DNA from: Acidimicrobiia bacterium
Lineage (GTDB): Bacteria; Actinomycetota; Acidimicrobiia; Acidimicrobiales; SKKL01
Direction of reading: 5' to 3'
DNA length: 38,509 nucleotides
Assembly: GCA_016649895.1 (NCBI GenBank)
Contig: JAENWR010000026.1
Span: forward strand, 1-38,509
Part shown: positions 4,518 through 38,295 of the stretch, piece by piece
Layout: every line of letters starts with the position of its first letter
How positions within the stretch are numbered: position 1 is the first letter of the stretch
Translations under genes and position numbers: made by a program
Notes under the pieces: model-generated
What the model was told of the DNA's origin: nothing
Seen by the model: the letters and a program-made list of their open reading frames with translations, nothing else
The model's database searches: none

Positions 4518-5309
4518 CTACTTCGGGCGGCGGACCCGGATGAGGACCTCTTGGGCCACCGACGCGATGTGGGTGCCGTCGACCGAGAAGAACGCACCGC
4601 GGGCGAGCCCCCGCCCGTCGGCGATGCCTGCCACGTCGACGTCCTCGAGCCGCCACTCGTCGGCGCGGAACGGTCGGTGGAACCACACGGCGTGGTCGAG
4701 GCTGACGCCGGAGAGGCCGCTGGTCGCGTGGTCGGATGATCGTCGCTCGGGGTGCGACGCGCCCACGGGCTCGGCGGGAAGGTCGTCGGAGCTGTAGGCC
4801 AGGCCGCAGGCATGCAGCAGGGGGTCGTCGCGGAGGTCGCCGTTGATGCGGATCCAGGCCTGCTCGCGGTGTGGCTCGTTCGGGCTGGCGACCGATCGTC
4901 GGTCGTAGAGGTCGGTCCACGAATCGGGTTCGAGACCATCGGGACCCGGGACGTCCGGCATCGAGACCACCTGGACCTCGGCCGACGCCTCCGCTCGCTT
5001 GAACGAGGCGATCATGGTGAGGATGGCACCGTTCGACTGGCGGGCGACGACCTGGCGGGTGGCGAACGATCGACCGTTGCGGAGCCGGTCGACCTCGAAT
5101 CGGATCGGCTCTGAGTGATCGCCGGGGCGGATGTAGTAGGCGTGCAGCGAGTGGGGCACGAAACCGGAGTCGACGGTGAGGCCACCGGCCCGCAGGGCCT
5201 GGGCGACGATCTGGCCGCCGAACAGGCCTCCCCATGGGTAGGAGGGGCCGGCACCGACGTACGTGTCGGGTCCATGCGGCTCGAGAGCCATCATCTCGAT
5301 GAAGTCCAT
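4518..5309 (-). CDS. tesB: Acyl-CoA thioesterase II (TesB-like)
   Basis: A 263-residue double-hotdog thioesterase that hydrolyses acyl-CoA to free acid and CoA. The N-terminal hotdog shows YPWGGLFGGQIVAQALRA and the conserved RPGDHSEPIRFEVDRLRNGRSFATRQV block. The C-terminal hotdog shows SLDHAVWFHRPFRADEW, the hallmark of the TesB family. The frame opens at 5357, but ATG 5309 (MDFIEMMALE) is where family similarity begins. It stands alone, divergent from the stress gene at 5653. A perfect inverted repeat at 5383-5395 lies ~75 bp upstream and could be an operator. Confidence 0.9.
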   Translation of the reverse strand: MDFIEMMALEPHGPDTYVGAGPSYPWGGLFGGQIVAQALRAGGLTVDSGFVPHSLHAYYIRPGDHSEPIRFEVDRLRNGRSFATRQVVARQSNGAILTMIASFKRAEASAEVQVVSMPDVPGPDGLEPDSWTDLYDRRSVASPNEPHREQAWIRINGDLRDDPLLHACGLAYSSDDLPAEPVGASHPERRSSDHATSGLSGVSLDHAVWFHRPFRADEWRLEDVDVAGIADGRGLARGAFFSVDGTHIASVAQEVLIRVRRPK

Positions 5310-5382
5310 GCATGCAGTCTCGCCGTTCGGGACCGCGTCGCCGACCACATGACACAAATCACCGGACGGGTTCGAATCGTTG

Positions 5383-7275: not shown

Positions 7276-7369
7276 GACCGACAGCCTAGAGATCGGGAAC
7301 CGGCGGCCGTTCCGGTTCGTCGAACATGGTGCCGGAGACGCCGGCACCGCCCCGACGATGGAGCCAGAG

Positions 7370-8263
7370 ATGTCACGACCCCGCTTCCGTTGGATGCTCG
7401 CCCTGCTCGCAGCGGCGGGCCTGCTGGCCGCCGGGTGCGGCGACGACACCGAGCTCGTGTCCAGCGGCGATGGTGGCAGTGGCACGGGTGAACAGGAGAG
7501 CGACGCGACCGATCCGGTGCTGCTCGTCGAGGTGACCGGAGCGTTCACCACCCCCGAGATGAACTTCCAGAACCTGCCGCACCTGGTCGTGTACCCCGAC
7601 GGCCGCATGGTCCAGCCGGGCGCCCAGATCATGATCTACCCGGGGCCTGCCCTCCCCGCGCTGAACGTGACCGGCCTGTCCGGCGAGGCACTCGAGGCGA
7701 TCGCCGGGGCCGCCCGTGCGGCCGGTCTCGATCGCAACGACGTCGACTACGGCGAACCGCCGGTGGCCGATGCCGGCACCACCGTCGTCACGGTCGTGAT
7801 CGACGGCGAGACCTACGTGCACTCGGCGAACGCGCTCGGCCTCGTTGCCGGCGACCTCGGCCCGAGCGCCGACGACCTCGGCCTCACCAACGAGCAGGTC
7901 GAGGCTCGTCAGGCGCTCGAGGGCTTCCTCGCCGAGGTCGGCGATCCCAGCTCGTTGCCCGGGGCCGGAGAGTCGCAGACGTTCTCCGCCGACCGGTTCC
8001 GCTTGTGGGCGCGCCCTGTCGCCGAGGTCGATGCCGGCGTCCAGCCCGACGCCGACGAGCCCAGGCCGACGACGGCCGAGTGGACCGTCGAGGAGGTCGA
8101 GCTCTCCGCTTCCGATTGCATCGCGGCGGAGGGCGACGCCGCCGATGCGGTGGCCTCGCTCCTCGCCGATGCCAACACGCTCACCCGCTTCGAGTCGGGG
8201 GGCGAGACGTGGGCGATCGTCGCCCGCCCGGTGCTGCCCCACGAGCCCACCTGCGTCGATTGA
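7370..8263 (+). CDS. Lipoprotein of unknown function
   Basis: A 297-residue protein with a lipoprotein signal: basic start MSRPRFR, hydrophobic stretch, and lipobox LAAGC near residue 23, followed by a Ser/Gly/Asp-rich linker. The mature part has segments such as HLVVYPDGRMVQ, LSGEALEAIAGAARAAGL and an invariant-looking final CVD. I recognise the pattern as a secreted actinobacterial hypothetical but cannot name a family with a known role. It is divergent from pabB and ends before a strong shared terminator at 8307-8346. ATG 7358 is an alternative start. Confidence 0.8.
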   Translation: MSRPRFRWMLALLAAAGLLAAGCGDDTELVSSGDGGSGTGEQESDATDPVLLVEVTGAFTTPEMNFQNLPHLVVYPDGRMVQPGAQIMIYPGPALPALNVTGLSGEALEAIAGAARAAGLDRNDVDYGEPPVADAGTTVVTVVIDGETYVHSANALGLVAGDLGPSADDLGLTNEQVEARQALEGFLAEVGDPSSLPGAGESQTFSADRFRLWARPVAEVDAGVQPDADEPRPTTAEWTVEEVELSASDCIAAEGDAADAVASLLADANTLTRFESGGETWAIVARPVLPHEPTCVD

Positions 8264-8306
8264 TCGCGGGCCCGGCGACCCGTCCCGGCCGGGCGCCGAC
8301 GCGAGA

Positions 8307-8346
8307 CGAGGCAGCCCCACCGACCTCGGCCGGTGGGGCTGCCTCG
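8307..8346. terminator. Bidirectional hairpin terminator
   Basis: A perfect 16-bp stem (arms 8307-8322 and 8331-8346, CGAGGCAGCCCCACCG and its complement) with an 8-base loop, located between the convergent lipoprotein (ends 8263) and alcohol dehydrogenase (ends 8375). There is no U-run, as is usual in high-GC actinobacteria. Its position suits termination of both genes. Confidence 0.8.
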
Positions 8347-8374
8347 TGCGAAAGGTCAGGCGGTGGACGTCCTG

Positions 8375-9508
8375 TCAGTCGTGCACGATCACCGAGCGAG
8401 CGACCTCGCCGGCGGCCATGGCCTCGAAGGCCTCGTTGACCTCGTCGACGCGGATCTCGCGGGAGATGAGCTCGTCGAGCTTGAGCTCACCCTTCTGGTA
8501 GAGGTCGATGAGCATCGGCACGTCGCGGTCGACGTTGGCCGAGCCGTACCAGCATCCCTTGATGGTCTTGGCCGCGTAGAGGAACGTGAACGCGGCGTTG
8601 AGGTCGAGCTGCACCTCGAGGCGGGGCACGCCCACGAGGATGACCTCGCCGCCGGTGCGGACCATGTTGACCGCCTGCATCATGGTGGCCTCGAGGCCGA
8701 TGCACTCGAACGACACATCGGCACCGCGACCCTCGGTGAGCCCCTGGACGGCGGCCACGGGGTCGCCCTCGCCAGCGTTGACGGTGTCGGTGGCGCCGAA
8801 GTCCTTCGCCATCTCGAGCTTCGAGTCGAACATGTCGACGGCGATGATCTTGGTGGCGCCGGCGATGCGCGCCCCCTGGATGGCGTTGAGTCCCACGCCG
8901 CCGCAGCCGATGACGACGACCGAATCGCCCTGGCGGATGTTGGCGGTGTTGATCGCAGCACCCACGCCGGTGAGCACGCCACAGCCGATGAGCGCTGCCG
9001 CGCCGAGCGGCACGTCGTCGGGGATCTTCACCGTGGAGATGACCGGCACGATGGCTTCGCTGGCGAAGGTGCCGCAGTAGGCCATCTGCCCGAGCTCGCC
9101 GTCGGGTGTCGAGAAGCGCTTGGTGCCGTCAAGGAGGCCGCCCAGGGAGACCGCAGCGTTCTTCTCGCACAGGAAGCCCTGGTCGCGGGTGCAGAAGTAG
9201 CACTCGCCGCACTGGGGGACCCACGACAGGACCACGTGGTCGCCGACGGCGCGATTGGTGACGCCGGGGCCCAGCTCGGTGATGACGCCAGCGCCCTCGT
9301 GGCCGAGGACGAGAGGCGTGGCGAGCGGAATCGTGCCGTTCTGCACCGAGACGTCGGAGTGGCAGACGCCCGATGCGGCCATCTTCACCCGAACCTCGCC
9401 GGCCTGGGGTGCGGCGACGGTGATGTCGTCGCGGATCTGAAGCGGCGTGTCGACGGCGTTGAGGACCGCCGCCCTAGCCGTGCCGGTGGTGCTGGTGGTG
9501 TCGGTCAT
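8375..9508 (-). CDS. Zinc-dependent alcohol dehydrogenase (MDR superfamily)
   Basis: A 377-residue medium-chain dehydrogenase oxidising an alcohol with NAD(P) or a bound cofactor. The catalytic zinc ligands are in SGVCHSD, LGHEGAG and LIGCGV. The structural zinc cysteines are in PQCGECYFCTRDQGFLC. The Rossmann motif is VIGCGGVGLNAIQGA. The pattern is closest to class III or nicotinoprotein alcohol dehydrogenases; the substrate cannot be assigned. ATG 9508 was chosen; ATG 9526 (six codons earlier) is possible. It is convergent with the lipoprotein across the 8307 terminator. The 132 bp before the next gene holds nothing I can name. Confidence 0.92.
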   Translation of the reverse strand: MTDTTSTTGTARAAVLNAVDTPLQIRDDITVAAPQAGEVRVKMAASGVCHSDVSVQNGTIPLATPLVLGHEGAGVITELGPGVTNRAVGDHVVLSWVPQCGECYFCTRDQGFLCEKNAAVSLGGLLDGTKRFSTPDGELGQMAYCGTFASEAIVPVISTVKIPDDVPLGAAALIGCGVLTGVGAAINTANIRQGDSVVVIGCGGVGLNAIQGARIAGATKIIAVDMFDSKLEMAKDFGATDTVNAGEGDPVAAVQGLTEGRGADVSFECIGLEATMMQAVNMVRTGGEVILVGVPRLEVQLDLNAAFTFLYAAKTIKGCWYGSANVDRDVPMLIDLYQKGELKLDELISREIRVDEVNEAFEAMAAGEVARSVIVHD

Positions 9509-9640
9509 CGCGTCATCGTCCCCCATTGGATCGGTGAAGTGGAGTGGGTCCTCATGGTCGCACCCGTCGGTGCTGCGCGCACATGCGCCACGAGTCGTCG
9601 AACCGTACACCGTACGGGCGAGCGGCCAGTGACAGCCGTC

Positions 9641-9937
9641 TCACCCTGCCGACGGGGGCAGGCGTCCTGTTTCGCGGTCGTCGGCGTCGGCCGCCTTCAC
9701 CGCGTATCCGAGGATGATCGCCGGCGCCAGGACGATCGATCCGGCGAGGAGCGAGCCGATGATGACGACGGTGAGCGTGCTCGACCAGCTCGTGACCGAT
9801 CCCCACACGAAGGCCACGATGGCGACGAGGAACAAGCCGTAGCCGAGCCGCTGGGCCACGCTCACGATGCGGGCCAGCCGGGCACGTCGCTGCAGCACGG
9901 GATCGGCGGAGCCGGCGCCGTCGGATGTGCTGCTCAC
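9641..9937 (-). CDS. Small two-helix membrane protein
   Basis: A 98-residue protein. Residues ~1-35 are polar, then two transmembrane helices follow (GYGLFLVAIVAFVWGSV and LTVVIIGSLLAGSIVLAPAIILGY), with a polar Asp-rich tail. Its GTG start overlaps the stop of the glycosyltransferase as GTGA (9934-9937), so it is translationally coupled to it. Actinobacterial hypotheticals of this form are common. A role as a membrane partner of the glycosyltransferase is only inference from coupling. Confidence 0.75.
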   Translation of the reverse strand: MSSTSDGAGSADPVLQRRARLARIVSVAQRLGYGLFLVAIVAFVWGSVTSWSSTLTVVIIGSLLAGSIVLAPAIILGYAVKAADADDRETGRLPPSAG

Positions 9938-10962
9938 GGGCGCCACCCGGCCTCGTCGAGGAGCTCGGCGATCCGCTCGGTCATCGAGTCGAAGGAGAGA
10001 TGTCGGCGGACCACCTCGCGATTGTGGTCGAGGAGCGCGGCATCGGGCGACCTCATGAACTCCCGCAGCGGCGTGGCATCGTCGGTGGGGAACCACCGGA
10101 AGCCCAACCGACGCAGCTCGGTGGCCACCGGGTAGTCGGCCACGGCCGCGGGGAGCATGTGCGCTGCGGCCTCGACCGGTGGGTTGCCGAAGCCCTCCCA
10201 CCTCGACGGGAAGACGACGGCATCGGCCGCCGCGTAGAAGTCGGCGGGGGAGACGGCACCCTCGCGGATGACGCGGCAGTGGGCGGCGCCGATGATGCGG
10301 TCGAGCTCGGGGCCGTAGCCCTCCTCGGCCGGACCCACCAGCCAATAGGTGGCGCCCAGCTGCTCGCACATCCGCACGGCGTCGGGCACGCCCTTGCGTT
10401 CGATGGCTCTCACCGGGTGCACCAGGAGCGTCTCGTCGTGGTGGACCCCGAGGCCGGCGCGAACCGCATCGCGATCCCCCCGCGGTGGGTCGGGATCGAA
10501 CCCGTTGTAGATGCACACAGCGTCGATGCCGCGCTCGGCCATCTCGACGCGGGTCAGCTGGTTGATGGTGACGTGGCACCAGGCCGCATCGGTGGGAGGC
10601 AGCTCGGTGATGTGGGCGAACCGTTCGCGCTGCCATGGTGGATCGTGGTGGTGCAGGACTGCCGGCCGCCCCCGCAACGCGTCGGCCACGACGCGGGCCG
10701 CTGCCAGGTTGAGTGGGATCGTCAGGAGGTTCTCGACGATCACCAGGTCGGCATCGGCGAGCGCGTCCTCGATCTCGCCGGCCGACGGGGGAGCTGAGGC
10801 CCCGATGGCGAGACCGGCGATGGTGCGGTCAACGGGTCCTTCGCCGGCGACGGTGACCACCTGCCACCCGAGCCGGGTGAGGGCATCGGACCAGGCGGCC
10901 GCCACGACCGACACTCCGTCGGTGAGGCCCAACCGGAACGAGACGAGGGCGCAGGTCGACAT
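9934..10962 (-). CDS. GT4-type glycosyltransferase
   Basis: A 342-residue GT-B fold glycosyltransferase. The N-domain has the nucleotide-free acceptor side (VSFRLGLTDGVSVVAAAWSDAL, HHHDPPWQRERF). The C-domain has PVRAIERKGVPDAVRM, YWLVGPAEEGYG and the diagnostic SRWEGFGNPPVEAA (E-x7-E-like nucleotide-sugar site). The HHHDPPW pattern is often seen in uncharacterised actinobacterial GT4 enzymes. Donor and acceptor are unknown. It overlaps the small membrane protein downstream by 4 bp and follows the DUF5317 gene (gap 38 bp), suggesting a three-gene run. Confidence 0.88.
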   Translation of the reverse strand: MSTCALVSFRLGLTDGVSVVAAAWSDALTRLGWQVVTVAGEGPVDRTIAGLAIGASAPPSAGEIEDALADADLVIVENLLTIPLNLAAARVVADALRGRPAVLHHHDPPWQRERFAHITELPPTDAAWCHVTINQLTRVEMAERGIDAVCIYNGFDPDPPRGDRDAVRAGLGVHHDETLLVHPVRAIERKGVPDAVRMCEQLGATYWLVGPAEEGYGPELDRIIGAAHCRVIREGAVSPADFYAAADAVVFPSRWEGFGNPPVEAAAHMLPAAVADYPVATELRRLGFRWFPTDDATPLREFMRSPDAALLDHNREVVRRHLSFDSMTERIAELLDEAGWRP

Positions 10963-11000
10963 GGCGGCCTCACCGTACCGGCCACCACTCCGCCCTTCGA

Positions 11001-11852
11001 TCAGCGGCGGCCGACGCGCATGGTGGGGTGGTCGGGGCGCGGCGGCGGATGCCGGCGCCACGGCCAGGCCGGGTGGGCAGCCGCAGGCGCGGCCCGGCCC
11101 GAAGGTGGAACGCCGCCGGCGCGGTGGATGGCGCCGACGAGGCCCTCGTCGTCCTTCGAGGGGCCCCACCCCAGGGGCACCGGAACCGGGCGGCCACGCT
11201 CCACCTCGATCGGTCGCTGACGGCGGGTGGGCTCGTGGTGGGGCCGGCCGGCGGCTGAGGTCGCGGCGCGGTCGTCGTCGAGGAGGATCTCGCGCACCGG
11301 GATGGTGCCCTGTCGGCGTCGTCGCTGCACGGCGTTGCAGGCGGCGGCGCCCATGCCCATCATCGTGATGAGGTCGCCGAAGGAGACGACGAGGCCGACC
11401 ACCGGCACCGGGATGCGCTCGCCGAGCGGGGCGAGCACGGTGTCGTCGTCGGCGACCCGTCGGCCGCCGACGAGGTGGAGGTCGACCGGATCATCGAGAG
11501 CGCCGACCTCGGCACGATCGACGGCATCGACAGCGAGGAGCGCGTCGAGGTCGACCGGTACCGTTCCGTGGAACAGGAGCGGCACGAGGTTCACGATGAT
11601 GCCGATGCCGGCGACGCCGAGGCCCCGAAGGTGCACGTTGGCAAACGCGAACAGCGCCCCGCAGATGAGGCCGGTGGCGAGGAGGATCTCGGGGGCCTCG
11701 AGCCCGCCCCACCTGGCGGCCACCACGGCGCAGACGGCGATGATGCCGACGGGGGTCCAACGGAAGTGGAGCCCCTTGAGGCGTCGGAGCCGGCCACCGC
11801 GGACCAGCCCGATCACCAATCCGATGAGGAGTCCGGCGGCGATGAGGGCCAT
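11001..11852 (-). CDS. DUF5317 family membrane protein
   Basis: A 283-residue protein. The first ~185 residues form 4-5 membrane helices typical of DUF5317: MALIAAGLLIGLVIGLVRGGRLRRL, then HLRGLGVAGIGIIVNLVPLLFHGTVPVD, then ERIPVPVVGLVVSFGDLITMMG. The remaining ~95 residues are a Pro/Arg-rich cytoplasmic tail without recognisable domain. The family function is unknown. ATG 11852 follows a GTG in the same frame. It is divergent from the biotinyl carrier at 11946; the 93-bp gap should contain both promoters. Confidence 0.85.
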   Translation of the reverse strand: MALIAAGLLIGLVIGLVRGGRLRRLKGLHFRWTPVGIIAVCAVVAARWGGLEAPEILLATGLICGALFAFANVHLRGLGVAGIGIIVNLVPLLFHGTVPVDLDALLAVDAVDRAEVGALDDPVDLHLVGGRRVADDDTVLAPLGERIPVPVVGLVVSFGDLITMMGMGAAACNAVQRRRRQGTIPVREILLDDDRAATSAAGRPHHEPTRRQRPIEVERGRPVPVPLGWGPSKDDEGLVGAIHRAGGVPPSGRAAPAAAHPAWPWRRHPPPRPDHPTMRVGRR

Positions 11853-28257: not shown

Positions 28258-29400
28258 ATGCCCGTCACCGAAGCCGAGATCATCGAGGCCCTGCGGCCGG
28301 TCGAGGACCCCGAGCTGCACCGTTCCATCGTCGATCTCGACATGGTCCGATCCGTGGGCATCGAAGGTGCCGACGTGATGGTGCAGGTGGCGCTCACGGT
28401 GGCGGGATGCCCACTGCGCAACGAGATCACCCGGCGGGTCACCGAGGCGGTCGAGGCACTCGACGGCGTCGATCGGTGCAGCATCGACTTCACGGTGATG
28501 AACGACGAGGACCGGGCCCGCATCCGCCAGATGCTCCACGGCGACCCCGCTGCCACCGCCGGCACGCACCAGGGCCACGGCCACGCCGAGGGCCGTTCGG
28601 TGCCGTTCGCCGAGGCCAACTCGCGCACCCGCAGCCTGCTCATCGCATCGGGCAAGGGCGGCGTCGGCAAGTCGTCGATCACCACGAACCTGGCCATCGC
28701 GCTCGCCCAGCGGGGCCACTCGGTGGCCATCATCGACGCCGACGTCTGGGGCTTCTCGATCCCTCGCATGCTCGGGGTCGACCGGCCGCCCACCGTCATC
28801 GACTCGATGCTCGTGCCGCCCGAGATCCACGGGGTGCGCTGCATCTCGATGGGGTTCTTCGCCGAGGAGGACCAGCCGGTCATCTGGCGTGGCCCGATGC
28901 TCCACAAGGCCCTCGAGCAGTTCCTCACCGACGTCTACTGGGACGAGCCCGACTTCCTGCTCGTCGACCTTCCCCCCGGCACCGGCGACATCTCGCTGTC
29001 GCTGGCGCAGTTCCTTCCCCGCTCCGAGGTCTACGTGGTCACCACCCCACAGGCCGCCGCGCAGCGGGTGGCGCAGCGTTCGGCGTTCATGTCGCAGAAG
29101 GTGCAACTCGAGGTGAAGGGCATCATCGAGAACATGTCGTGGTTCACCGGCGACGACGGCACACGCTACGAGCTGTTCGGAGCCGGCGGTGGCCAGGACC
29201 TGGCCGATCGCCTTGAGGTGCCGCTCCTCGGCAAGGTGCCACTGGTGCCCCAGCTGCGCGAGGGCTCCGACTCGGGCCACCCGATCATGGTCGAGGCCCC
29301 CGACAGCGAGGCCGGCCAGGTGTTCGCCTCGATGGCCGCGATGATCGACGTCGAGCTGGCCCCCACCCGCCGCCACCATCCCGAGCTGAAGATCATCTAG
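28258..29400 (+). CDS. mrp: Mrp/ApbC-type Fe-S carrier ATPase
   Basis: A 380-residue P-loop protein. The N-terminal ~90 residues are a MIP18/DUF59 domain (EAEIIEALRPVEDPELHRSIVDLDMV, VALTVAGCPLRNEI). The C-terminal domain has the deviant Walker A SGKGGVGKSS, then DADVWGFSIPRMLG, LVDLPPGTGDISLSLAQ and IIENMSWF. The usual CxxC of ApbC after MSWF is not present here; FTGDDGTRYELFG is read instead. It carries Fe-S clusters to apoproteins. GAGGAG (28244-28249) precedes ATG 28258. Its TAG stop lies within the CTAG target duplication of the adjoining IS element. Confidence 0.92.
   Translation: MPVTEAEIIEALRPVEDPELHRSIVDLDMVRSVGIEGADVMVQVALTVAGCPLRNEITRRVTEAVEALDGVDRCSIDFTVMNDEDRARIRQMLHGDPAATAGTHQGHGHAEGRSVPFAEANSRTRSLLIASGKGGVGKSSITTNLAIALAQRGHSVAIIDADVWGFSIPRMLGVDRPPTVIDSMLVPPEIHGVRCISMGFFAEEDQPVIWRGPMLHKALEQFLTDVYWDEPDFLLVDLPPGTGDISLSLAQFLPRSEVYVVTTPQAAAQRVAQRSAFMSQKVQLEVKGIIENMSWFTGDDGTRYELFGAGGGQDLADRLEVPLLGKVPLVPQLREGSDSGHPIMVEAPDSEAGQVFASMAAMIDVELAPTRRHHPELKII
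29397..29400. repeat. Left CTAG target duplication
   Basis: CTAG flanking the IS1182-type element on the left, repeated at 31032-31035 on the right. It contains the mrp stop codon. Because CTAG is itself a palindrome, it could alternatively be counted in the inverted repeats. Confidence 0.7.
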
Positions 29401-31031
29401 GAGCGTGAGTCGGTAACGGGGAGTTGGGCTGGTGCGGGGACGCGGGGGTTGGGGTGGTGTCGTTGCTGCTGGTGGCTTGGTTCGGGCCGGTGGGTGGCGG
29501 TTCCTGGTTGAACCGCTGATGGCGGTGCCGGGTCTGCTGTGCGGGGGTTGCCTGCCCGCTTCGGTGGTTCAGGTGGGGGCCGGTCGGGCTGAGACGGTGT
29601 TGTTGAACAGTTTGCGGAGGTTGTGGCACGCGGCGATGAACCGCCATTCGTGGGCGGCGGCGTGTTCACCTCGGAGCAGGACCTGTTTGCCTCCCTGGAC
29701 GGTGTCGATCTGACCGAAGACCGGTTCGATGATCGCTTTGCGTCGGGCGTAGCCGGCCCGTCCGGGTTTGGTGCGTCCGGTCGCGATCAACGCGTCGATG
29801 TCACGGTCGGCGGCCGCGGCGACGTTGTCGTCGGAGAAGTAGCCGGCATCAGCCACCACCTGGTCGGGCTTGGCGTCGCAGTTCGCACAGATGTCATCGA
29901 GGAGCGACACGAACTCGAGGCAGTCAGCTGAGCGGTTCGACAGCCGGGTCGCGACGATCACCTGGTGGTCTTCGGCGGCGGCGGTCTGGGCGTTGGAGCA
30001 GTAGTGGAAACCGCCGTCGGAGGTCTTCATGATCCGGGCGTCCGGGTCGGTGAAGTTGCGTTGCGCCTTGTCCGGCACCGTTGCTGTCGCAGCGGCTTGG
30101 TCAGCTGCGCCAGCGGTGTCCTCGCCGCGTTGCTCAGCGGTCGCGTCGTCGTGCCCGGCTGTTTTGTGCCACGTTGTGCGGGCTGCGTCGGCCGCGGCGC
30201 GGCGAGCCGTGTCAGCTTCAAGATCGGCTTTCGCGCGGCGGATCTTCGCGAGGCGGCCCTCGCGGCGGGCCATCTCCGCGTCGAGGTCGTCGTCGCGGCC
30301 GTCGGGACCGAACTTGTGATCCTCGGCGGTATCGGTTCCTTCGGCGTCACGAAGGAGGTCATCGACCTCGGCTTGGAGATCGGCTTCGCGTTCGGTCATC
30401 CGCTTGTAGGACATGGCTTTGCGGCGAGAAGCGTTGGCTCGCACCTTCGAACCGTCCAAGCCGACCCGACCCAGCTTGACCATCCCCGCCTGCTGGCACA
30501 GCTTCAAGATCTCCAAGAACAGGGCGTCCAACGCGGCGAGGTGCCGGCGCCGGAACCGGGCGATCGACCGGAAGTCCGGTGCCTGGTCCGCGGCCAGGAA
30601 CCGGAACGCCACATCGTCACCGCAGGCCTTCTCGATCTTGCGCGACGACCGCACCCCGGTGGTGTAGCCGTAGACCAAGATCTTCAACATCAACCGGGGG
30701 TCATACGGCGGGAACCCCCGCTTCTCGGTGTGCGCCGCCAGGAACGGTTCGAGATCCACGACCTCATCCACCAACTCGGACACGAACCGGGCCAGATGAT
30801 CCTCCGGCACCCAATCCCCAATCGACGGCGGCATCAACAACACCTGGGCCGGGTCATAGGCCCGAAACGTCGTATCCACCCGACCCTTCACCGGCAGCTC
30901 GACCAGCTCCACCACCGACACCTCGAACAACCGGTCCTCACCATCACGACTCGTCATCCCACCAGTATTTTCGATCCCGACACAGAACGCGAATCGAGCG
31001 AACCCACAATGGCGGTTACTGACCCACGCTC
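29401..31031 (-). mobile_element. Complete IS1182-family insertion sequence (1631 bp)
   Basis: Bounded by 17-bp inverted repeats: left GAGCGTGAGTCGGTAAC (29401-29417) and right GTTACTGACCCACGCTC (31015-31031), matching at 15 of 17 positions. Both are flanked by CTAG. It carries one intact transposase on the minus strand. About 150 bp between the left repeat and the transposase stop is noncoding and includes a 7-bp-stem hairpin (29497-29516). Intact ends and gene suggest recent arrival. Confidence 0.9.
29569..30957 (-). CDS. IS1182-family transposase
   Basis: A 462-residue DDE transposase. The N-terminal region is PPSIGDWVPEDHLARFVSELVDEV. The family block is PPYDPRLMLKILVYGYTTGVRSSRKIEKAC, then PDFRSIARFRRRHL. 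The first catalytic aspartate is in GRVGLDGSKVRANAS and the second in VVADAGYFSDDNV. The glutamate region is RKAIIEPVFGQIDTVQG. There is a long charged insertion of ~120 residues between first and second Asp. The frame is complete. It lies wholly within the terminal repeats. Confidence 0.94.
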   Translation of the reverse strand: MTSRDGEDRLFEVSVVELVELPVKGRVDTTFRAYDPAQVLLMPPSIGDWVPEDHLARFVSELVDEVVDLEPFLAAHTEKRGFPPYDPRLMLKILVYGYTTGVRSSRKIEKACGDDVAFRFLAADQAPDFRSIARFRRRHLAALDALFLEILKLCQQAGMVKLGRVGLDGSKVRANASRRKAMSYKRMTEREADLQAEVDDLLRDAEGTDTAEDHKFGPDGRDDDLDAEMARREGRLAKIRRAKADLEADTARRAAADAARTTWHKTAGHDDATAEQRGEDTAGAADQAAATATVPDKAQRNFTDPDARIMKTSDGGFHYCSNAQTAAAEDHQVIVATRLSNRSADCLEFVSLLDDICANCDAKPDQVVADAGYFSDDNVAAAADRDIDALIATGRTKPGRAGYARRKAIIEPVFGQIDTVQGGKQVLLRGEHAAAHEWRFIAACHNLRKLFNNTVSARPAPT

Positions 31032-31035
31032 CTAG
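31032..31035. repeat. Right CTAG target duplication
   Basis: Matches the CTAG at 29397-29400. Joining the two flanks restores mrp stop codon directly followed by the hairpin at 31037. Confidence 0.7.
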
Positions 31036-31036
31036 C

Positions 31037-31060
31037 GACGCCGCCGGTAGGAGCGGCGTC
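31037..31060. terminator. Hairpin terminator, formerly shared by mrp and the methyltransferase operon
   Basis: Arms GACGCCGC (31037-31044) and GCGGCGTC (31053-31060) with an 8-base loop. It follows the methyltransferase stop (31068) on the minus strand. Before the IS insertion it would have lain just after the mrp stop on the plus strand. Confidence 0.7.
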
Positions 31061-31067
31061 AGTCGGA

Positions 31068-32189
31068 TCAGATGCGCACCTCGTAGTAGAGGTTGGCGGG
31101 CTCGTCGAAGTCGTGGATCCGGAACTGGCTGAACCCTGCCTCGGCACAGAGCTGTTCGAGGAGCTCGGGGTGCAGGCCGAGGGTGCCGAGTCCTGCACCG
31201 CCGGGTTCGGATAGGGCGGAGGACATGCAGCTGGCGATGGAGAAGCCGTACATCATCGCCGCCATGGGGTTGGCGAGGTTGTCCTTGGCCCGAGGGGCGC
31301 AGCGGATGTCTTTGACGAGCCAGGTGCCGTCGGGGCGGATCGATCGGCGGATGGCGGCCACCGTCTCGGTGGGCTTGGTCATGTCGTGCAGGCAGTCGAG
31401 GGTGAGCACGAGATCAAACGTCGCCTCCGTCGGGAGGGTGTCGGCGCCGGCGAGGTGAAGGGTGACGTTGGCGACCTTGGCGTCGGCGACCAGTTGCTGA
31501 GCTCGTTCGATGGCGTGACGGGAGATGTCGTAGCCGTGGATGTGCGAGCGCGGGAACCGTTCGGCCAGAGCGATGACGGCGAGGCCGGCCCCGCAGCCGA
31601 CGTCGGCGACCACGCCGCCGGCGTCGAGCTTGGCCTCTACCCCGTCGAGGGCGGGCAGGATTCGGGGTACGAGGGCGATTCGGGTCCAGGGCCCGAGCAT
31701 CCGTTCGGTGCGGTGGGCGCCGGCGGGGCCTTGGCGGTCATAGGGCAGGCCGAGCCCGGTGCGGAAGGCGTCGGCGAGGTCGTCGACGAAGTCGGGCGCG
31801 GCTGGGGTACCGAAGGCTCCGGCGGCGAAGAACAGCGAACTGTGCTCGTCGGCCAGCACGGCCGCTGCGGCGTCGGTGAGCTCGAAGTGGTCGTCGTCGT
31901 GCCAGGTGAGCAGGCCGGCGGCCCCTTGGCCGCGCAGCCACTCGAGGAGCCAGCGTTCGTGCAGGCCGGTTCGTTCGGCCAGCTGGGCGGCGGTGAGGGG
32001 ACCGGCGTCGCGCATGGCGCGGTAGAGGCCGAGCCGGTCGCCGAGGTGGATGAGCAGCGACACCATTTCGCCCTGCTTGTAGTTCCACACTTGGAAGGCG
32101 AAGAGGCCGATCTCCTCCGGGCTCGGCGGACTGGGCGTGTCGGTCATGGCGTCATCATCGTCGGAGTCCAAGGGCTTTGCGTCCGTCAT
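31068..32189 (-). CDS. Winged-helix class I SAM-dependent methyltransferase
   Basis: A 373-residue protein. Residues ~60-120 form a dimerisation/winged-helix domain (PLTAAQLAERTGLHERWLLEWLRGQGAAGL). Residues ~185-310 are the Rossmann domain, with motif I VADVGCGAGLAVIAL, IHGYDISRHAIERA and LVLTLDCLHDMTKP. It resembles Rv2258c-like actinobacterial methyltransferases of unknown substrate. Its ATG overlaps the DsbA-like stop as ATGA, so it is the last gene of the minus-strand run from 36745. ATG 32147 (MTDTPSPP) is an alternative start. Confidence 0.88.
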   Translation of the reverse strand: MTDAKPLDSDDDDAMTDTPSPPSPEEIGLFAFQVWNYKQGEMVSLLIHLGDRLGLYRAMRDAGPLTAAQLAERTGLHERWLLEWLRGQGAAGLLTWHDDDHFELTDAAAAVLADEHSSLFFAAGAFGTPAAPDFVDDLADAFRTGLGLPYDRQGPAGAHRTERMLGPWTRIALVPRILPALDGVEAKLDAGGVVADVGCGAGLAVIALAERFPRSHIHGYDISRHAIERAQQLVADAKVANVTLHLAGADTLPTEATFDLVLTLDCLHDMTKPTETVAAIRRSIRPDGTWLVKDIRCAPRAKDNLANPMAAMMYGFSIASCMSSALSEPGGAGLGTLGLHPELLEQLCAEAGFSQFRIHDFDEPANLYYEVRI

Positions 32190-32821
32190 TGGAGGGTCCG
32201 GTCGATGAACCGGTGGAGCTCGGCGTCGTCGATGTCGATGCGGAGGTGTGCACCGTGGCGTTCGATGTCGAGGGTGGGGCAGAAGAACGGGCTGCCGTCG
32301 ATGATGAAGTAGGGGGAGCCGGTGACACCCCGGCGCTGACCTTCGGCGAAGTCGGCCTCGACCGCAGCGCGGGCGGTCGCCTCGTCGGGCACGTCGAGAC
32401 CGAAGCCGGCCGCGATCTCGGCGAGCACGCCTGGGTCGCTGATCGCCCTGCCCTGTTCGAACAGCGCGTCGCGGATGGCGAGGTTGAAGGCTTCTGCGGT
32501 GTAGGTGCCGTGCTGGTAGGCGAGCGTGGCGGTGCCGAGGATGGCGATCGTGCTCGACGGGAAGGCCGACGGCTCGAAGCCGCCGAACAGATCGCCGGCG
32601 ACCTGGGCGCGCAGGTCGGCGATCTCGTCGGTGACTTTGGCGGCACCGAGCGCCTCACCGTTGACCAGCTCCAGCGGCCAGGCGTGCACCCGGAGCCGCA
32701 CGTGGTCGGCGTCGGCCTGTCGGCGACGTTCGGTGAAGCGCCGGAGGCTGAAGTGGGCGAAAGGGCACGAGACGTCGGCGTAGACGTCGACGAGCCGCTC
32801 GGGTCGTGCTGGGTCGGTCAT
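32186..32821 (-). CDS. DsbA/FrnE-like thioredoxin-fold protein
   Basis: A 211-residue DsbA-family (2-hydroxychromene isomerase/FrnE-like) protein without signal peptide, so cytoplasmic. The active-site position reads DVSCPFAHFSLRRF: only the first cysteine of CxxC is present (CPFA). The helical insertion and the cis-proline loop GVTGSPYFIIDGSPFFCPTLD are clear. Single-Cys forms may act by glutathione- or mycothiol-type chemistry; this is inference. It overlaps the beta-propeller gene upstream and the methyltransferase downstream by 4 bp each. Confidence 0.85.
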   Translation of the reverse strand: MTDPARPERLVDVYADVSCPFAHFSLRRFTERRRQADADHVRLRVHAWPLELVNGEALGAAKVTDEIADLRAQVAGDLFGGFEPSAFPSSTIAILGTATLAYQHGTYTAEAFNLAIRDALFEQGRAISDPGVLAEIAAGFGLDVPDEATARAAVEADFAEGQRRGVTGSPYFIIDGSPFFCPTLDIERHGAHLRIDIDDAELHRFIDRTLQ

Positions 32822-33777
32822 GTCGTCGGGGTGAGGGTGGTGACGACCCCGGCGCCCTGGTTGCCGACGAACACGCGGCCGGTGCCGGGGTCGACGGTCA
32901 TGCCTGCCGGTCCGGCGGCCACGTCGACGCGGTCGAGGACGGTGCCGCGGCGGGCGTCGAGGACGGCGACCTGGCTGGTGCCGGTGACCGCCGCGAGGAC
33001 GGTGCTGCGCTGCGGGTCGACGACGATGCCATGGGGCGAAGCACCGACCGGGGCGCGCCACGCCACTCGGCCGCCGCGGACGGCGACGACCTCGCCGGTC
33101 CGTTCGAGGGTGACGTAGAGGGTGCCGCCGAGGAAGGCGGAGTTCCACGGCCCGGCGCCGACGGTGACGACGTCACGGACCTCGAGGGAGTCGCGGTCGA
33201 GGAGGTGGACGGTGTCGGCCGCGGTGTCGGTCACGGCGATCCGGTCCGGCCCGACGGAGACACCCCAGGGTCCGTCGCCGACGGGGATCGTGGTGATCTG
33301 GGCGAGGGTGGCGAGCTCGTAGACCTCGAGGCGGTCGGCGTCGATGCTGGTCACGTACAGGCGGCCGTAGTCGGTGTCGACGGCGAGGCCGTGGGGGTTG
33401 GGGCCGACGGCGAATTGGGTGACCGCCCCGGTGTCGAGGTCGATGACCGACACGCTGGCCGCACCCTTGTTGGTCACGAAGGCGCGGCGGGAGGCGTCGT
33501 CGACCACGACGGTGTGGGGCGTTGTGCCGGCAGCGAAGGTGCGGGTCGGGCCGGTGCTGATCTCGAGGTCGGTGACGGTGTTCGCCGAGACGTTGGAGAC
33601 GACCACGTGCCCGGTGGTCGGGTCGAATGCCGGGAAGTGCGGGGTCGGTCCTGCGCTTGTGGTGCTGGTGACGGTGTAGGTGGTGCGCCGGGGGTGGGCG
33701 GCGGCGGGTGCCGCGGTGGCGGCGAGCATGGCCACGCTCGCTGCCAGGGCAGCTACAGCGGTGAGGGTTCTTCGCAT
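32818..33777 (-). CDS. Secreted YVTN/NHL-type beta-propeller protein
   Basis: A 319-residue protein with a Sec signal (MRRTLTAVAALAASVAMLAA, cleavage after APAAA). The rest is six to seven beta-propeller repeats of form GPxPHGLAVDxxxGRLYVT and VGDGPWGVSVGPDRIAVTDTAADTVHLLD. No catalytic motif is visible; such propellers bind proteins or metals outside the cell. AAGGAG precedes ATG 33777 by 6 bp. It is coupled to the DsbA-like gene by ATGA, although one product is exported and the other is not. Confidence 0.85.
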   Translation of the reverse strand: MRRTLTAVAALAASVAMLAATAAPAAAHPRRTTYTVTSTTSAGPTPHFPAFDPTTGHVVVSNVSANTVTDLEISTGPTRTFAAGTTPHTVVVDDASRRAFVTNKGAASVSVIDLDTGAVTQFAVGPNPHGLAVDTDYGRLYVTSIDADRLEVYELATLAQITTIPVGDGPWGVSVGPDRIAVTDTAADTVHLLDRDSLEVRDVVTVGAGPWNSAFLGGTLYVTLERTGEVVAVRGGRVAWRAPVGASPHGIVVDPQRSTVLAAVTGTSQVAVLDARRGTVLDRVDVAAGPAGMTVDPGTGRVFVGNQGAGVVTTLTPTT

Positions 33778-33802
33778 GACGTTCTCCTTGTGATCGGGGG
33801 GT

Positions 33803-33889
33803 TCAGGCGGCTGCGGGCGCGTGAGCGTCGAGCCACTCGGTGAGGGCGTGGGCGGGGAGCGGGGCAAGGTCGGTGAGTATCGGGGTCAC
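33803..33889 (-). CDS. Possible 28-codon mini-ORF coupled to DUF302 gene
   Basis: A GTG at 33889 overlaps the DUF302 stop as GTGA, the same coupling used elsewhere in this run, and opens 28 codons (ending LTEWLDAHAPAAA) before a stop at 33803. It fills the otherwise empty gap to the beta-propeller. I know no family for it. It could equally be chance. Confidence 0.25.
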   Translation of the reverse strand: MTPILTDLAPLPAHALTEWLDAHAPAAA

Positions 33890-34278
33890 CGGCCGGCGAG
33901 GGTGTCGAGGGCGGCCTGGATGCGCTGGCCGGCTTCCTCGGCAATGGGGGCGAGGGCGGCGTTGTCGGGCACCTCGGCGATGATCTTGGGGTCGAGGGCT
34001 TCGACGACGGTGTGGCCGTTCTCGGTGCGGACGACGACGTTGCACGGCAGCAACGTGGCGACGCGGGGGTCGATCTCCAGGGCGCGGTGGGCGAGCTGGG
34101 GGTTGCAGGCGCCGAGGATGATCTGGGCGTCGACGTCGATGTCGAGCTTGTCCTTCAAGGTCTGGCGGACGTCGATCTCGGTGAGGACGCCGAAGCCCTG
34201 TTCCTTGAGGGCGTCTTTCACATAGGTGATGGTGTCGTCGTAGGTGGCGTCGAGCTCGATGCGGCGGGTGAATTCCAT
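33886..34278 (-). CDS. DUF302 family protein
   Basis: A 130-residue protein matching DUF302 throughout: DDTITYVKDALKEQGFGVLTEIDVRQTLKDKLD, then ILGACNPQLAHRALEIDPRVATLLPCNVVVR. The two cysteines (GACNP and LLPCN) are typical. DUF302 proteins are widespread next to sulfur-oxidation and persulfide genes. Their fold is heme- or ligand-binding-like and their function is unknown. GGAGG lies upstream of ATG 34278. It follows the damaged TauE gene on the same strand. Confidence 0.92.
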   Translation of the reverse strand: MEFTRRIELDATYDDTITYVKDALKEQGFGVLTEIDVRQTLKDKLDIDVDAQIILGACNPQLAHRALEIDPRVATLLPCNVVVRTENGHTVVEALDPKIIAEVPDNAALAPIAEEAGQRIQAALDTLAGR

Positions 34279-34305
34279 GGGGGTGGTCCTCCAGTTGGTT
34301 GGCGG

Positions 34306-34943
34306 TCAGTAGGTGACGAGCAGGGCGGCGAAGGCGCGTTGCATCGACTCGGGTTCGAGGCGGTCGGCGATCCGCTTGCCGGCCCCGACCCCGGCGGTCG
34401 CGGCGGCGGTGAACACCAGGGTCGTGCCCCAGTCGATGCTGCCGGCGCCGGCTCGGGCGGCGAGGGCGACAGCGGCGTTGACGGCGATGACGGCGATGAC
34501 GAGGAGCGAGGTGCCGATGGCGACGCCCATCGGGAACTCAAGGACCAGGGCGAGGGCGGGGACGATCACGAACCCGCCGCCCACGCCGAACAGGCCGGTG
34601 AGGAACCCGACGGCGGTGCCGCGGCGACGATCTTGGCGACCCGAACGTCGCTGTCGAGGCGGCGGTTCAGGGCGGATCCGGCCAGTGAGCCTGCGATGCC
34701 TACGAGGCCGAACATCAGGCCCTGGGTGACCCGGACGCGGCCGGCCCGCCAGTGGCCGTGGGCGCCGATGAGCGCGGCGACGCCGACGACGACCAGCGAC
34801 GTCGTCGTGGCCGCCGACGGGTCCTGGCCGGCAACGAAGACCAGGACGGTGACGGCCAGGATCGAGCCGCCCCCGCCGAGCGCGCCGAGGGACACGCCGA
34901 TGAGGAACCCGAGCGGCGATGCCAGCAGCGCCCTGGTGCTCAT
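34306..34943 (-). pseudogene. TauE/SafE-type sulfite/sulfur exporter, deleted and frameshifted
   Basis: From ATG 34943 the first half reads as TauE (LGFLIGVSLGALGGGGSILA, SLVVVGVAALIGAHGHW, GSLAGSALNRRLDSDV). At ~34643 the sequence jumps to RVAKIVAA, skipping about 40 residues (a helix plus loop) that the family normally has. At ~34620 one base is missing (GCGGC where GCGGGC is expected). The second half continues in the next frame as TAVGFLTGLFGVGGGFVIVP to AFAALLVTY. In sulfide-response operons TauE exports or imports sulfite or thiosulfate; this copy is probably non-functional. Confidence 0.8.
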
Positions 34944-35025
34944 CGCTGCCCCGGGCCGCCGGGCGACGACAGGACGTCGATAGCGACCCGCTCGCCGTCC
35001 GCAGTGTCAACGGCGGCGTCCACGG

Positions 35026-36387
35026 TCAGTCCGTGCTGACGCCGAGGGCGTCGTGTTTGGCGGCGGCCGCCCACTCGTCGTCGATGGCCACGACGGTGGG
35101 ACCGGCCCGGTCGAGCAGCGATGCCGCGATCGAGGCCCGGTAGCCGGACGCGCAGTGGACCCACACCTCGCCGTCGGGGATCTCGTCGAGGCGGGCTTCG
35201 AGATCGTGGAGGGGGATGTGCACGGCGCCGTCGATGCGGCCGTCGGCCCACTCGTCATCCCGGCGGACGTCGAGCACCACGACCCCGGCGTCCTCGCGTG
35301 CATCGGCGAGGTCGGCGAAGGTCGCGGTCCGGTAGGAGCGCACATCACCGCCGATCGCCCAGGTGTCGATGCCGCCGTCGGCGGCGCCGGCGGGGCGGTC
35401 GATGCCGATGCGGACCATCTGGCGCTGGGCCTCGGCGACCTGCTCGGCAGTGTCGCCCACCAGGGTCACCGGTGTCCCCCACCGCAGCACCCAACCCAGG
35501 TAGGTGGCGAACGAATCGCCCACCTCCAAATTGACGGTACCGGCCAGGTGGCCGCGGGCGAATGCCGTGCGCGACCGCAGGTCGACGACCCATTCCCCGG
35601 CGTGGATGCGGCGGCGGATCTCGACGGGGTCGACCAGCTCGGGCGCCGACAGGTCGACATCGGAGGGTCCGGCCCGGTTGATGGGCGCCATGTGGGCATA
35701 GTAGCGGGGGTAGGCAGTCAGCCCGCTCAGCAGCTTCTCGACGAAGGTGTCCTCGTCATCAAGGGTCAACGCCAGGTTCGAGTGGCGTTCCTGGCCGATC
35801 GTGCTGGCATCCGAACCCGACGTCGACGCCGACGAGCAGAAGCTGCCGAACCCGTGGGTCGGGTACACACCGACCTCGCCCGGCAGCTCATCGGCGAGGC
35901 GGCGCACCGACTGGAACTGGGCCCGGGTCAGGTCCTCGGTCGCTTCCGCGCTGATGAGGTCGGTGCGACCGACGGTGCCGAACAGCATCGACCCGCCCGT
36001 GAACGCCGCCACCGGCTGGCCGTCCTCGAGCACCACGTAGGAGAGGTGGGTCGGGGTGTGGCCCGGCGTGTGCGCGGCCCGGACCACCAGATCGCCGACG
36101 GTGAACTCATCACCATCGGCCGCGCCGGTGCGGCCGAAGGCCACGTCGGCGGCGGCGGCCAACACATAGGCGGCGCCGGCTCGTCGGGCCAGCTCCAGGC
36201 CGCCGGTCACGTAGTCGTTGTGGAGGTGTGTTTCGAACACGTGCGACAGGCGCACACCCCGCTCGGCCAGCACCGTCTCGACGCGGTCGATGTCGCGTTG
36301 GGGGTCGATGACCGCGGCGGCGTCGCCGGAGACCAGGATGTAGCTGCGGTCGCCCAATGCGGGGGTCTCGATCGTGATGATCTCCAT
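35026..36387 (-). CDS. MBL-fold/rhodanese fusion, persulfide dioxygenase-like (CstB-type)
   Basis: A 453-residue protein. Residues ~1-230 are a metallo-beta-lactamase fold with iron ligands in ETHLHNDYVTGG, AHTPGHTPTHLSYV and VYPTHGFGSFCSS, the ETHE1/persulfide dioxygenase pattern. Residues ~255-345 are a rhodanese domain lacking the catalytic Cys (VTLVGDTAEQV). Residues ~360-450 are a second rhodanese with an active-looking Cys (VHCASGYRAS). This layout is that of CstB-type enzymes, oxidising persulfides to sulfite/thiosulfate. ATG 36387 has GAGAGGGA just upstream. It follows the small rhodanese gene by 13 bp. Confidence 0.9.
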   Translation of the reverse strand: MEIITIETPALGDRSYILVSGDAAAVIDPQRDIDRVETVLAERGVRLSHVFETHLHNDYVTGGLELARRAGAAYVLAAAADVAFGRTGAADGDEFTVGDLVVRAAHTPGHTPTHLSYVVLEDGQPVAAFTGGSMLFGTVGRTDLISAEATEDLTRAQFQSVRRLADELPGEVGVYPTHGFGSFCSSASTSGSDASTIGQERHSNLALTLDDEDTFVEKLLSGLTAYPRYYAHMAPINRAGPSDVDLSAPELVDPVEIRRRIHAGEWVVDLRSRTAFARGHLAGTVNLEVGDSFATYLGWVLRWGTPVTLVGDTAEQVAEAQRQMVRIGIDRPAGAADGGIDTWAIGGDVRSYRTATFADLADAREDAGVVVLDVRRDDEWADGRIDGAVHIPLHDLEARLDEIPDGEVWVHCASGYRASIAASLLDRAGPTVVAIDDEWAAAAKHDALGVSTD

Positions 36388-36400
36388 CAGTCCCTCTCGA

Positions 36401-36745
36401 TCAGGCCACGGCGCCGGGGGCGCCGTCGTCACGCATCACCGGCAGGCCTGCGGTCGCCCACGCCGTCATGCCGCCGGCGACATTGCGGACCTTGGCCCCA
36501 GCCTGAGCCAACGTCTCCGCGGCCTTGGCCGACCGGCCGCCGCTGCGACAGACGGCGAGGACTTCCTGCCCGGCGAATCGGGCAGCGGTTGTCTCCACCT
36601 CGGCCAGCGGGACGTGGACGGCGCCTGGAGCGTGACCGTCGGCCCACTCGTCGGGCTCGCGGACATCGAGCAGTACCGCGCCTTTCTCGCGCAGACCAAC
36701 CGCGTCCTGCGGTGAGACTTCGTCGATCTTCGATCGTTGGAACAC
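36401..36745 (-). CDS. Single-domain rhodanese sulfurtransferase
   Basis: A 114-residue rhodanese. Conserved features are LLDVREPDEWADGHAPGAVHVPLAEV and the persulfide-carrying C66 in AVCRSGGRS. It moves sulfane sulfur to an acceptor in the cytoplasm. It is the first gene of the minus-strand sulfur run. GTG 36745 is preceded by AGGTAGGT. A CstR/CsoR-type operator palindrome lies 41 bp upstream. Its layout recalls cst operons, where a rhodanese is followed by an MBL-rhodanese fusion. Confidence 0.92.
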   Translation of the reverse strand: MFQRSKIDEVSPQDAVGLREKGAVLLDVREPDEWADGHAPGAVHVPLAEVETTAARFAGQEVLAVCRSGGRSAKAAETLAQAGAKVRNVAGGMTAWATAGLPVMRDDGAPGAVA

Positions 36746-36785: not shown

Positions 36786-36801
36786 ATACCCCCTTGGGTA
36801 T
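36786..36801. promoter_or_regulatory. CstR/CsoR-type operator
   Basis: ATACCCCCTTGGGTAT has perfect ATACCC/GGGTAT arms around a CCTT centre, the form of CsoR/CstR family operators. It lies in the 144-bp divergent gap, 41 bp before the rhodanese start and 88 bp before the repressor start. Further half-sites (AATACCCCCC, GTACCC) occur at ~36852-36870. Confidence 0.75.
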
Positions 36802-36889
36802 ATTCCAAACGCGAGGATCACCCCCACCGGCGAACCACGGACAACCATGGGAATACCCCCCGCCGTACCCTTCGTTGAAGGAAGAGACC

Positions 36890-37159
36890 ATGGACCTGCC
36901 CGAACAGACCATCGACGACCTGCTCAAGCGGCTGCGCCGCGTCGAGGGCCAGATCCGGGGTATCCAACAGATGCTCCTCGACGGCCGCGAATGCCGAGAC
37001 GTCGTAACCTAGATCTCCGCGGCCAGCAAAGCCCTCGACCAGGCCGGCTTCAAGCTCGTCGCCTCCGGGCTCACCTACTGCCTGAACAACCCCGAACAGG
37101 CCGCCGAAGAGGGCTACGACATCGACGACGTCCAGAAGATGTTCATGAAGCTCGCCTAG
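36890..37159 (+). pseudogene. cstR: CstR/CsoR-family repressor interrupted by in-frame TAG
   Basis: The frame would give 89 residues, normal for the family: LLKRLRRVEGQIRGIQQMLLDGRECRDVVT, then TAG at 37010-37012, then ISAASKALDQAGFKLVASGLTYCL to the end. The stop replaces a position normally glutamine (CAG to TAG). The first conserved Cys (C35) lies before it and the second (C64) after. The histidine four residues before C64, a copper ligand in CsoR, is glycine, which favours a persulfide sensor (CstR). Without readthrough only 40 residues are made. GAAGGAAGAG precedes ATG 36890. Confidence 0.82.
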
Positions 37160-37182: not shown

Positions 37183-37425
37183 TCAGCCTCGGGCGCAGGA
37201 GGCGCCGAGCCGGCGGCCCGCGCTGGACCACGCAGGGTCGTCGGTTCGGGGCCAGTAGTCCCCGGTGTGCTCGTCCTGGTCGTAGGTCACGGGGGGGGGC
37301 GCCTCGCTGCTGACGATGCGGGCGAGAGCGTCGAGGAAGCGGTCGATGTCGTCGCTGCTCGTGGCGATCCCGGCGCTGGCCCGCACCGCTCCAGGCACCC
37401 GCCGGCGGTCCCCGCGCAGCCAACC
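37183..37425 (-). pseudogene. C-terminal remnant of a class V aminotransferase
   Basis: On the minus strand the last ~80 codons read [30 protein letters not shown] and then a tail with YDQDEHTGDYWPRTD. This is the usual end of cysteine desulfurase/selenocysteine lyase-type class V aminotransferases. The N-terminal ~85% is absent; the sequence meets an integrase fragment near 37405-37425. It contains a run of nine G (37291-37299). The exact junction cannot be placed by eye. Confidence 0.6.
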
Positions 37426-37909
37426 CGTCCGGGTCACCGCGCATCAGTTCCGTCACACCCTCGGGACCAGGCTCATCAACCAAGGTGTGCCCCAGCACGT
37501 CATCCAACGGCTCCTCGGGCATGCAAGCCCGTAGATGACCGCCCGCTACGCCACCCTGCACGACACCACCGTCCGCCAGGCCTTCGACGAGTACTGCCAG
37601 CAACGAGTCGACCTTCACGGCGAACGCATCGTCTATGACCCCGTCGGCGTCACCGCTGATGCCGAGTGGACCAAGCACAACATGGCCCGAGTCCAAGCCA
37701 GCCACCCCAACGCCTGTCTCACCTGCCCCGACTTCCAGACCACCCCGGCGTTTCTCGACGTGCACCGCCGCCAACGCGACGACACCCGCACCCTCATCGC
37801 AACCGCCGAGAGCGACGGCCGGTTCCGTCTCGCCGCGAACCACCGCCAGGTCCACGACAACCTCGACCAGCTCATCGACTCCCTCGAAACCATCGGAGAC
37901 GGACCATGA
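37426..37909 (+). pseudogene. Tyrosine-recombinase/integrase remnant with in-frame TAG
   Basis: Begins inside the catalytic domain: [20 protein letters not shown] (HxxR box) and QRLLGHASP. An in-frame TAG (37532-37534) replaces the glutamate normally found before MTARYATLHD (the catalytic Tyr is in ARYATLHD). The frame then runs on with ACLTCPDFQTTPAFLDVHRR and FRLAANHRQVHDNLDQLI to a TGA at 37907-37909. The N-terminal half is missing. The cysteine-rich tail is typical of integrases that sit in front of DUF6262 genes. Confidence 0.8.
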
Positions 37910-38295
37910 CCACTGACAACTGCAACGCGCTCGCCGTCGCCGCCCAGCAACGCAGCCACGAGACCCGCCACCGCGCCATCGAGGCCCTCCGCGACCTCGA
38001 TGCTGCCGGCGAAGCAGTGACCTTCACCAGCGTCGCCCGAACAGCAGGTGTGTCACGGTCCTGGCTCTACCGCCAACCCGATCTCTGCTCCGAAATCGAT
38101 CGCCTCCGCACCACCGGCCCCGCCACCGCCACCATCGGAGCGGTCCCCTCCGCCCAACGCGCCACCACCGAGTCCCAGAGTCGGCGCCTCGAGGCCACCC
38201 TCGACGAGATCCGACGCCTCAAGGCCGAGAACCATCAGCTCCGAGAACAAGTCGCCAAACGCTTCGGCCAGCAACGCGCCGACGGACTCACCTGA
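37906..38295 (+). CDS. DUF6262 (TnpC-like) transposition-associated protein
   Basis: A 129-residue protein. Residues ~45-70 form a helix-turn-helix (VTFTSVARTAGVSRSWLYRQPDL). The C-terminal third is a coiled coil (LEATLDEIRRLKAENHQLREQVAKRF). It matches small proteins encoded behind actinobacterial site-specific integrases of the Tn554-like three-gene type. ATG 37906 overlaps the integrase remnant stop as ATGA. The frame is intact but its partner integrase is broken, so it is probably an orphan. Confidence 0.78.
   Translation: MTTDNCNALAVAAQQRSHETRHRAIEALRDLDAAGEAVTFTSVARTAGVSRSWLYRQPDLCSEIDRLRTTGPATATIGAVPSAQRATTESQSRRLEATLDEIRRLKAENHQLREQVAKRFGQQRADGLT

Follow-up and report, generated by a model that had tools for sequence, protein, structure and literature searches.

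A probably eroding copy of the actinobacterial sulfane-sulfur module in an insertion sequence-bordered island of an Acidimicrobiia bacterium, and the genes that lie behind it

The window, by which we mean the whole stretch of 38,509 nucleotides from an Acidimicrobiia bacterium that was analysed, carries on its minus strand a run of genes that a first-pass annotation had read as a sulfide/persulfide operon extended by three further genes. Protein families were assigned to the ORFs of the window with Pfam and NCBIfam profiles, and all of the genes named in that annotation were found, on the one strand and in the order it gave. They are a single-domain rhodanese with a CRSGGRS loop (36401-36745; PF00581, 8e-19); a persulfide-dioxygenase-like MBL protein with two rhodanese domains (35026-36384; PF00753 and PF00581), which has an HLHNDY metal motif and, in its last rhodanese domain, a CASGYR loop; a disrupted TauE/SafE exporter (34306-34943; two separate PF01925 fragments); a DUF302 protein (33886-34278; PF03625, 1.5e-22); a mini-ORF of 28 codons (33803-33889); a YVTN/NHL beta-propeller (32818-33777; TIGR02276, PF21783); a DsbA/FrnE-superfamily protein with a CPFA motif and an invariant FCP cysteine (32186-32821; PF01323); and a Rv2258c/TnmJ-like protein of the SAM-methyltransferase fold (MT; 31068-32189; PF13847, PF21320). 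The last three are called the tail here, and the rhodanese, MBL-rhodanese, TauE and DUF302 genes the core. The stable hairpin that had been placed at the end of the run is present 3' of MT, between its stop codon and the end of an insertion sequence (IS) (31037-31060, minus strand; -17.8 kcal/mol, z -3.4), and has no T-run. A divergent repressor gene, two operator sites and the IS behind the hairpin had all gone unmentioned.

The junctions within the run are tight. DUF302 and the mini-ORF overlap by GTGA at the DUF302 stop, the propeller is preceded by a gap of ∼24 nt containing AAGGAG, and the propeller and DsbA-like genes overlap by ATGA. The mini-ORF is unsupported and was rejected as a gene because no homologue was found on plasmids or in the module loci. 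ATGA overlaps had been proposed throughout the tail; the one between propeller and DsbA-like genes looks real, but the one between the DsbA-like gene and MT is doubtful, as the start of MT is uncertain. With the closest MT orthologue (G082, 84%), nucleotide similarity sets in near 32163, and an inner ATG in the same frame at 32147, ∼40 nt downstream of the first, is better conserved as a start. Because similarity starts near this ATG, which may be the true start of MT, the overlap may be illusory. A scan for internal promoters gave one weak sigma-70-like match inside DUF302 (34145-34118), which we did not take as evidence of a promoter. Given the compact spacing (the 24-nt gap and the ATGA overlap), co-transcription of the tail with the core is plausible.

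The divergent gene (36890-37159, plus strand) encodes a CsoR/CstR-type repressor, with PF02583 matching over its first 40 codons. Its C35 and C64, 29 residues apart, are kept, as is the same pair in its relatives, and the position of the copper-site histidine is occupied by G60. The corresponding cysteines in ScCsoR, a sulfane-sulfur sensor, are Cys37 and Cys66 (PMC7533328). Between the repressor and rhodanese genes lies ATACCCCCTTGGGTAT (36786-36801, plus strand), which matches the ScCsoR operator consensus ATACCn6GGTAT (PMC7533328) with 0 mismatches. The motif recurs near csoR in three other loci (L118, L119 and L121), as well as in the genome's second module, and it is because of this conservation and its position that the exact match carries weight. 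A second, weaker operator-like site (36853-36868, plus strand) has 2 mismatches; a lone 16-bp motif with that many mismatches is within chance, and this site counts by position only. Given the ScCsoR-like repressor and the exact operator with a motif recurring near csoR, the sulfide/persulfide identity that the first-pass annotation had assigned to the core is strengthened, and the core can be firmly predicted to be the known CstR/ScCsoR sulfane-sulfur module. The two-cysteine repressor, the operator, the PDO-type MBL with C-terminal rhodanese and the separate rhodanese are all in place; an uninterrupted repressor gene and an intact TauE sulfite exporter are not. The MBL protein is 89% identical to that of relative G159 and 83% to that of G068, at pN/pS of 0.18-0.24.

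The closest described counterpart, the ScCsoR-ScPDO-rhodanese-TauE circuit of Streptomyces coelicolor (PMC7533328), shares with the window a repressor whose two cysteines are spaced by 29 residues, the operators, the PDO-rhodanese, the rhodanese and TauE; unlike it, the window has an interrupted repressor, a broken TauE and an added DUF302, and three unrelated genes lie behind. The Staphylococcus aureus CstR/cst operon and the Bacillus licheniformis yrkD cluster (PMC9918477) likewise place a persulfide-sensing CstR-type repressor over rhodanese, PDO and TauE, but their gene order is different, and no SQR, TusA or DsrE was noticed in the window. The propeller, DsbA-like and MT genes are not described for either system (PMC9918477).

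Two genes of this copy are damaged in the assembly. Codon 41 of the repressor is an in-frame TAG (37010-37012) where three relatives (G159, G068 and G102) have CAG; the remainder of the gene is still 90-92% identical to these relatives, with low pN/pS, so that the lesion, if real, would be recent. Reading TAG as glutamine was rejected, as 4518-5357, mrp at the IS border and csoR itself all terminate in TAG. The TauE gene of the first-pass annotation is represented by remnants and is not intact: alignment with G068 and G102 reveals an internal deletion of ∼60 codons, a 1-nt frameshift near the joint and a truncated 3' end, leaving two matches, one of which has an internal stop. The module thus looks decayed, although errors of MAG assembly or strain mixture could mimic such lesions.

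A second module is found in the same genome on contig C9 (10000-29500; module at 6464-11612 of the fetched stretch, L156). It comprises an exact operator, an open csoR, an MMPL transporter, an MBL that is more distant (36%), a rhodanese and an open TauE frame. The CstR encoded on C9 could regulate the operator of the window in trans, and the C9 TauE could supply the exporter. Recombinase genes lie further downstream of this module.

The surroundings of the window copy are those of a mobile region. The IS, with a DUF772/DDE transposase, terminal inverted repeats and CTAG on both sides, occupies about 29401-31031 (29397-31035; minus strand); its left border is the mrp stop codon, and its right end lies directly behind the hairpin. 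Synteny of the window with three family members breaks at this stop codon, where the IS starts. The arsA region comes after mrp in three relatives (G001, G002 and G003); in the genome under study, arsA is on another contig (C142) and adjoins a further IS end, which lies at the end of that contig, is 96% identical over 446 nt and runs in the same direction. Substitutions and a 12-nt indel distinguish the two copies, of which that in the window is complete and has CTAG on either side. The whole stretch could be an island flanked by two copies of the IS, or the contig could have been joined via the IS. On the other side of the module lie a remnant of an aminotransferase-V-like C-terminus (37186-37437, minus strand; no Pfam match), of which 37250-37420 has a 69% nucleotide match to a gene near the second module, and a truncated tyrosine recombinase with DUF6262, Tn554-like transposition genes (37430-38295, plus strand; PF00589, PF19776). 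The module of the Mycobacterium adipatum plasmid pMYC1 is also near DUF6262 and tyrosine recombinases.

Of the tail proteins, the propeller has an apparent signal peptide, judged from sequence, and its best solved relative is the YVTN domain of an S-layer protein (1l0q), which belongs to the same repeat family; we know of no role of YVTN beta-propellers in sulfur metabolism. The DsbA-like protein gave a model with a pLDDT of 95, nearest to FrnE, HCCA isomerase, YjbH and GST kappa and also near Rv2466c; against FrnE (5coh) the DsbA-type fold aligns over 184 residues (Z 18.4, rmsd 2.8; profile match 4e-9). The first-pass annotation had described it as a single-cysteine thioredoxin fold, which does not hold for this family, as all 23 aligned sequences keep both C19 and C181. 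In the aligned homologues CxxC is replaced by CPF[A/T], and an FCP motif holds the other invariant cysteine. Judging by the secondary-structure register, the hairpin after the cis-Pro ends with C181, which may lie near C19 in the fold. Compared with Deinococcus radiodurans FrnE and the DsbA-Mrx1 cluster (Rv2466c, NCgl2478; PMC8280269), the fold and the position of the nucleophilic cysteine are shared, but the window family has CPFA or CPFT rather than CxxC and its second cysteine after the cis-Pro hairpin. Because NCgl2478 (CPFC) reduces mycothiolated disulfides via one cysteine (PMC8280269), a monothiol role with mycothiol is conceivable by analogy. The group as a whole (the window gene and L002-L024) is oxidoreductase-like with an unusual cysteine pair, CPF[A/T] and FCP.

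MT consists of an N-terminal winged helix (PF21320) and a Rossmann domain with a SAM motif (PF13847), in which D196, G198, C199, G200 and G202 are invariant. It matches TnmJ (8g5s, 9e-59) and Rv2258c (5f8c, 9e-39) over most of its length, the Rv2258c-like winged-helix domain included, and the close relatives of solved structure that were listed include no thiol methyltransferase. The thiol or persulfide methylation at which the earlier annotation had hinted is thus left without positive support. TnmJ is cited as a cofactor-independent oxygenase (PMC11181247), so that even methyl transfer by MT is not certain. An anti-phage role was rejected, as it would rest on just a generic methyltransferase-domain match to mad2.

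If the tail were part of the system, one would expect to meet it behind the module elsewhere. About 300 genomes of the same order were sampled, three of them relatives from the same genus or family, and for this reason a close relative sharing the gene order may have escaped notice. The module MBL (E ≤ 1e-100) occurs in 34 of 248 same-order genomes, and the module is found on many actinobacterial plasmids. No tail gene lies behind it in G068, G007, G102, the four plasmids read closely or C9, while G159 is uninformative on this point because its contig ends soon after the MBL. No sampled relative keeps the module together with the propeller-DsbA-MT arrangement; the gene order is unique to this genome among all relatives fetched, which argues against a functional extension of the module. 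MT has homologues in many genomes (134 of 298 at 1e-40), DsbA-like homologues were present in 27 of 148 genomes, and a search of the genome contigs with the DsbA-like query returned a single weak match. The propeller is rare, with four distant homologues (32-40%) across 298 genomes of the order, 395 of the class and 396 of the phylum, none of which had a sulfur module linked to it within the stretches fetched. In those stretches the best homologues of the tail genes had neither another tail gene nor the module alongside, and their neighborhoods have almost nothing in common. In one genome (G125) a propeller and a DsbA-like gene are ∼3.6 kb apart on one contig; as they are on opposite strands with other genes between, we judged this proximity to be chance.

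Co-occurrence in same-order genomes gave the same answer: MBL and MT were found together in 8 genomes (8.9 expected) and MBL and DsbA in 5 (4.0 expected), so that MT and DsbA are distributed independently of the module. MT and DsbA co-occurred in 12 against ∼6.6 expected (P ∼0.01, uncorrected and unadjusted for genome size or phylogeny). The nearest relatives also differ by gene (G082 for MT, G054 for DsbA, G159 for MBL). Foreign composition was rejected as a sign of transfer, because the tail genes do not clearly depart from the core genes in GC and GC3. Beyond adjacency there is no positive support for a shared sulfur function of the tail, and such a function is probably absent.

We thus consider it probable that the locus is an eroding, horizontally carried copy of the actinobacterial sulfane-sulfur module in an IS-bordered island, with an accidental tail. 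In an intact module, the CstR/ScCsoR-type repressor would sense persulfide via its two cysteines and free the operator, the persulfide dioxygenase and rhodaneses would convert persulfide to sulfite, and TauE would export the sulfite. In the window copy, with its repressor apparently cut by a stop codon and its TauE apparently broken, the open CstR from C9 may still act on the operator in trans. The tail genes would be separate acquisitions of broad families, placed behind the module inside the island and probably transcribed by read-through as a passive tail. Counting against an accidental tail are the intactness of all three genes, the purifying selection on MT (pN/pS 0.23 versus G082), the operon-like spacing and the co-occurrence of MT with DsbA.

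An alternative reading is that the tail is a true extension, in which the DsbA-like protein would handle mycothiol persulfides or mixed disulfides, MT would cap a thiol or persulfide and the propeller would act extracellularly. We think this improbable. The compact same-strand layout with its ribosome-binding site and ATGA overlap fits it, as do the intact frames and the proximity of the fold to FrnE, GST kappa and Rv2466c, but the arrangement is not conserved, MT and DsbA occur independently of the module elsewhere, and MT is closest to TnmJ and Rv2258c. Modelling the DsbA-like protein on the handling of mycothiolated disulfides by NCgl2478 and Rv2466c, an analogy that we likewise hold improbable, is weakened by its lack of the CxxC of the mycothiol-dependent cluster. 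A narrower form, in which the DsbA-superfamily protein (C19...C181) and the TnmJ/Rv2258c-like enzyme would be a lineage-specific, CstR-controlled addition processing mycothiol persulfides, strikes us as very improbable indeed. Somewhat less remote, though still unlikely, is that assembly produced part of the arrangement, with the contig joined via the repeated IS and the csoR and tauE lesions due to errors or strain mixture. The genome is available as a draft in 171 contigs, and the IS end on C142 lies beside arsA, the native neighbor of mrp, such that mrp-IS-arsA could be the true order. However, the two IS copies differ and that of the window is complete with CTAG on both sides; the damage to TauE is a clean deletion, and csoR is altered by one C to T.

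Although the locus is largely ordinary, its gene set being a familiar one for clearance of toxic sulfur, it records the known persulfide-detoxification module, with operator and repressor, in Acidimicrobiia. It also cautions that one unconserved neighborhood is a poor basis for inferring function; were the extension true after all, it would point to an unknown route for handling mycothiol persulfides. On the preferred reading, an eroding module with an accidental tail, the window offers an example of a persulfide module decaying within a mobile island. Such erosion may recur, because at the G159 locus (L118, 7542-7718) the rhodanese gene beside the module also seems to be internally shortened.
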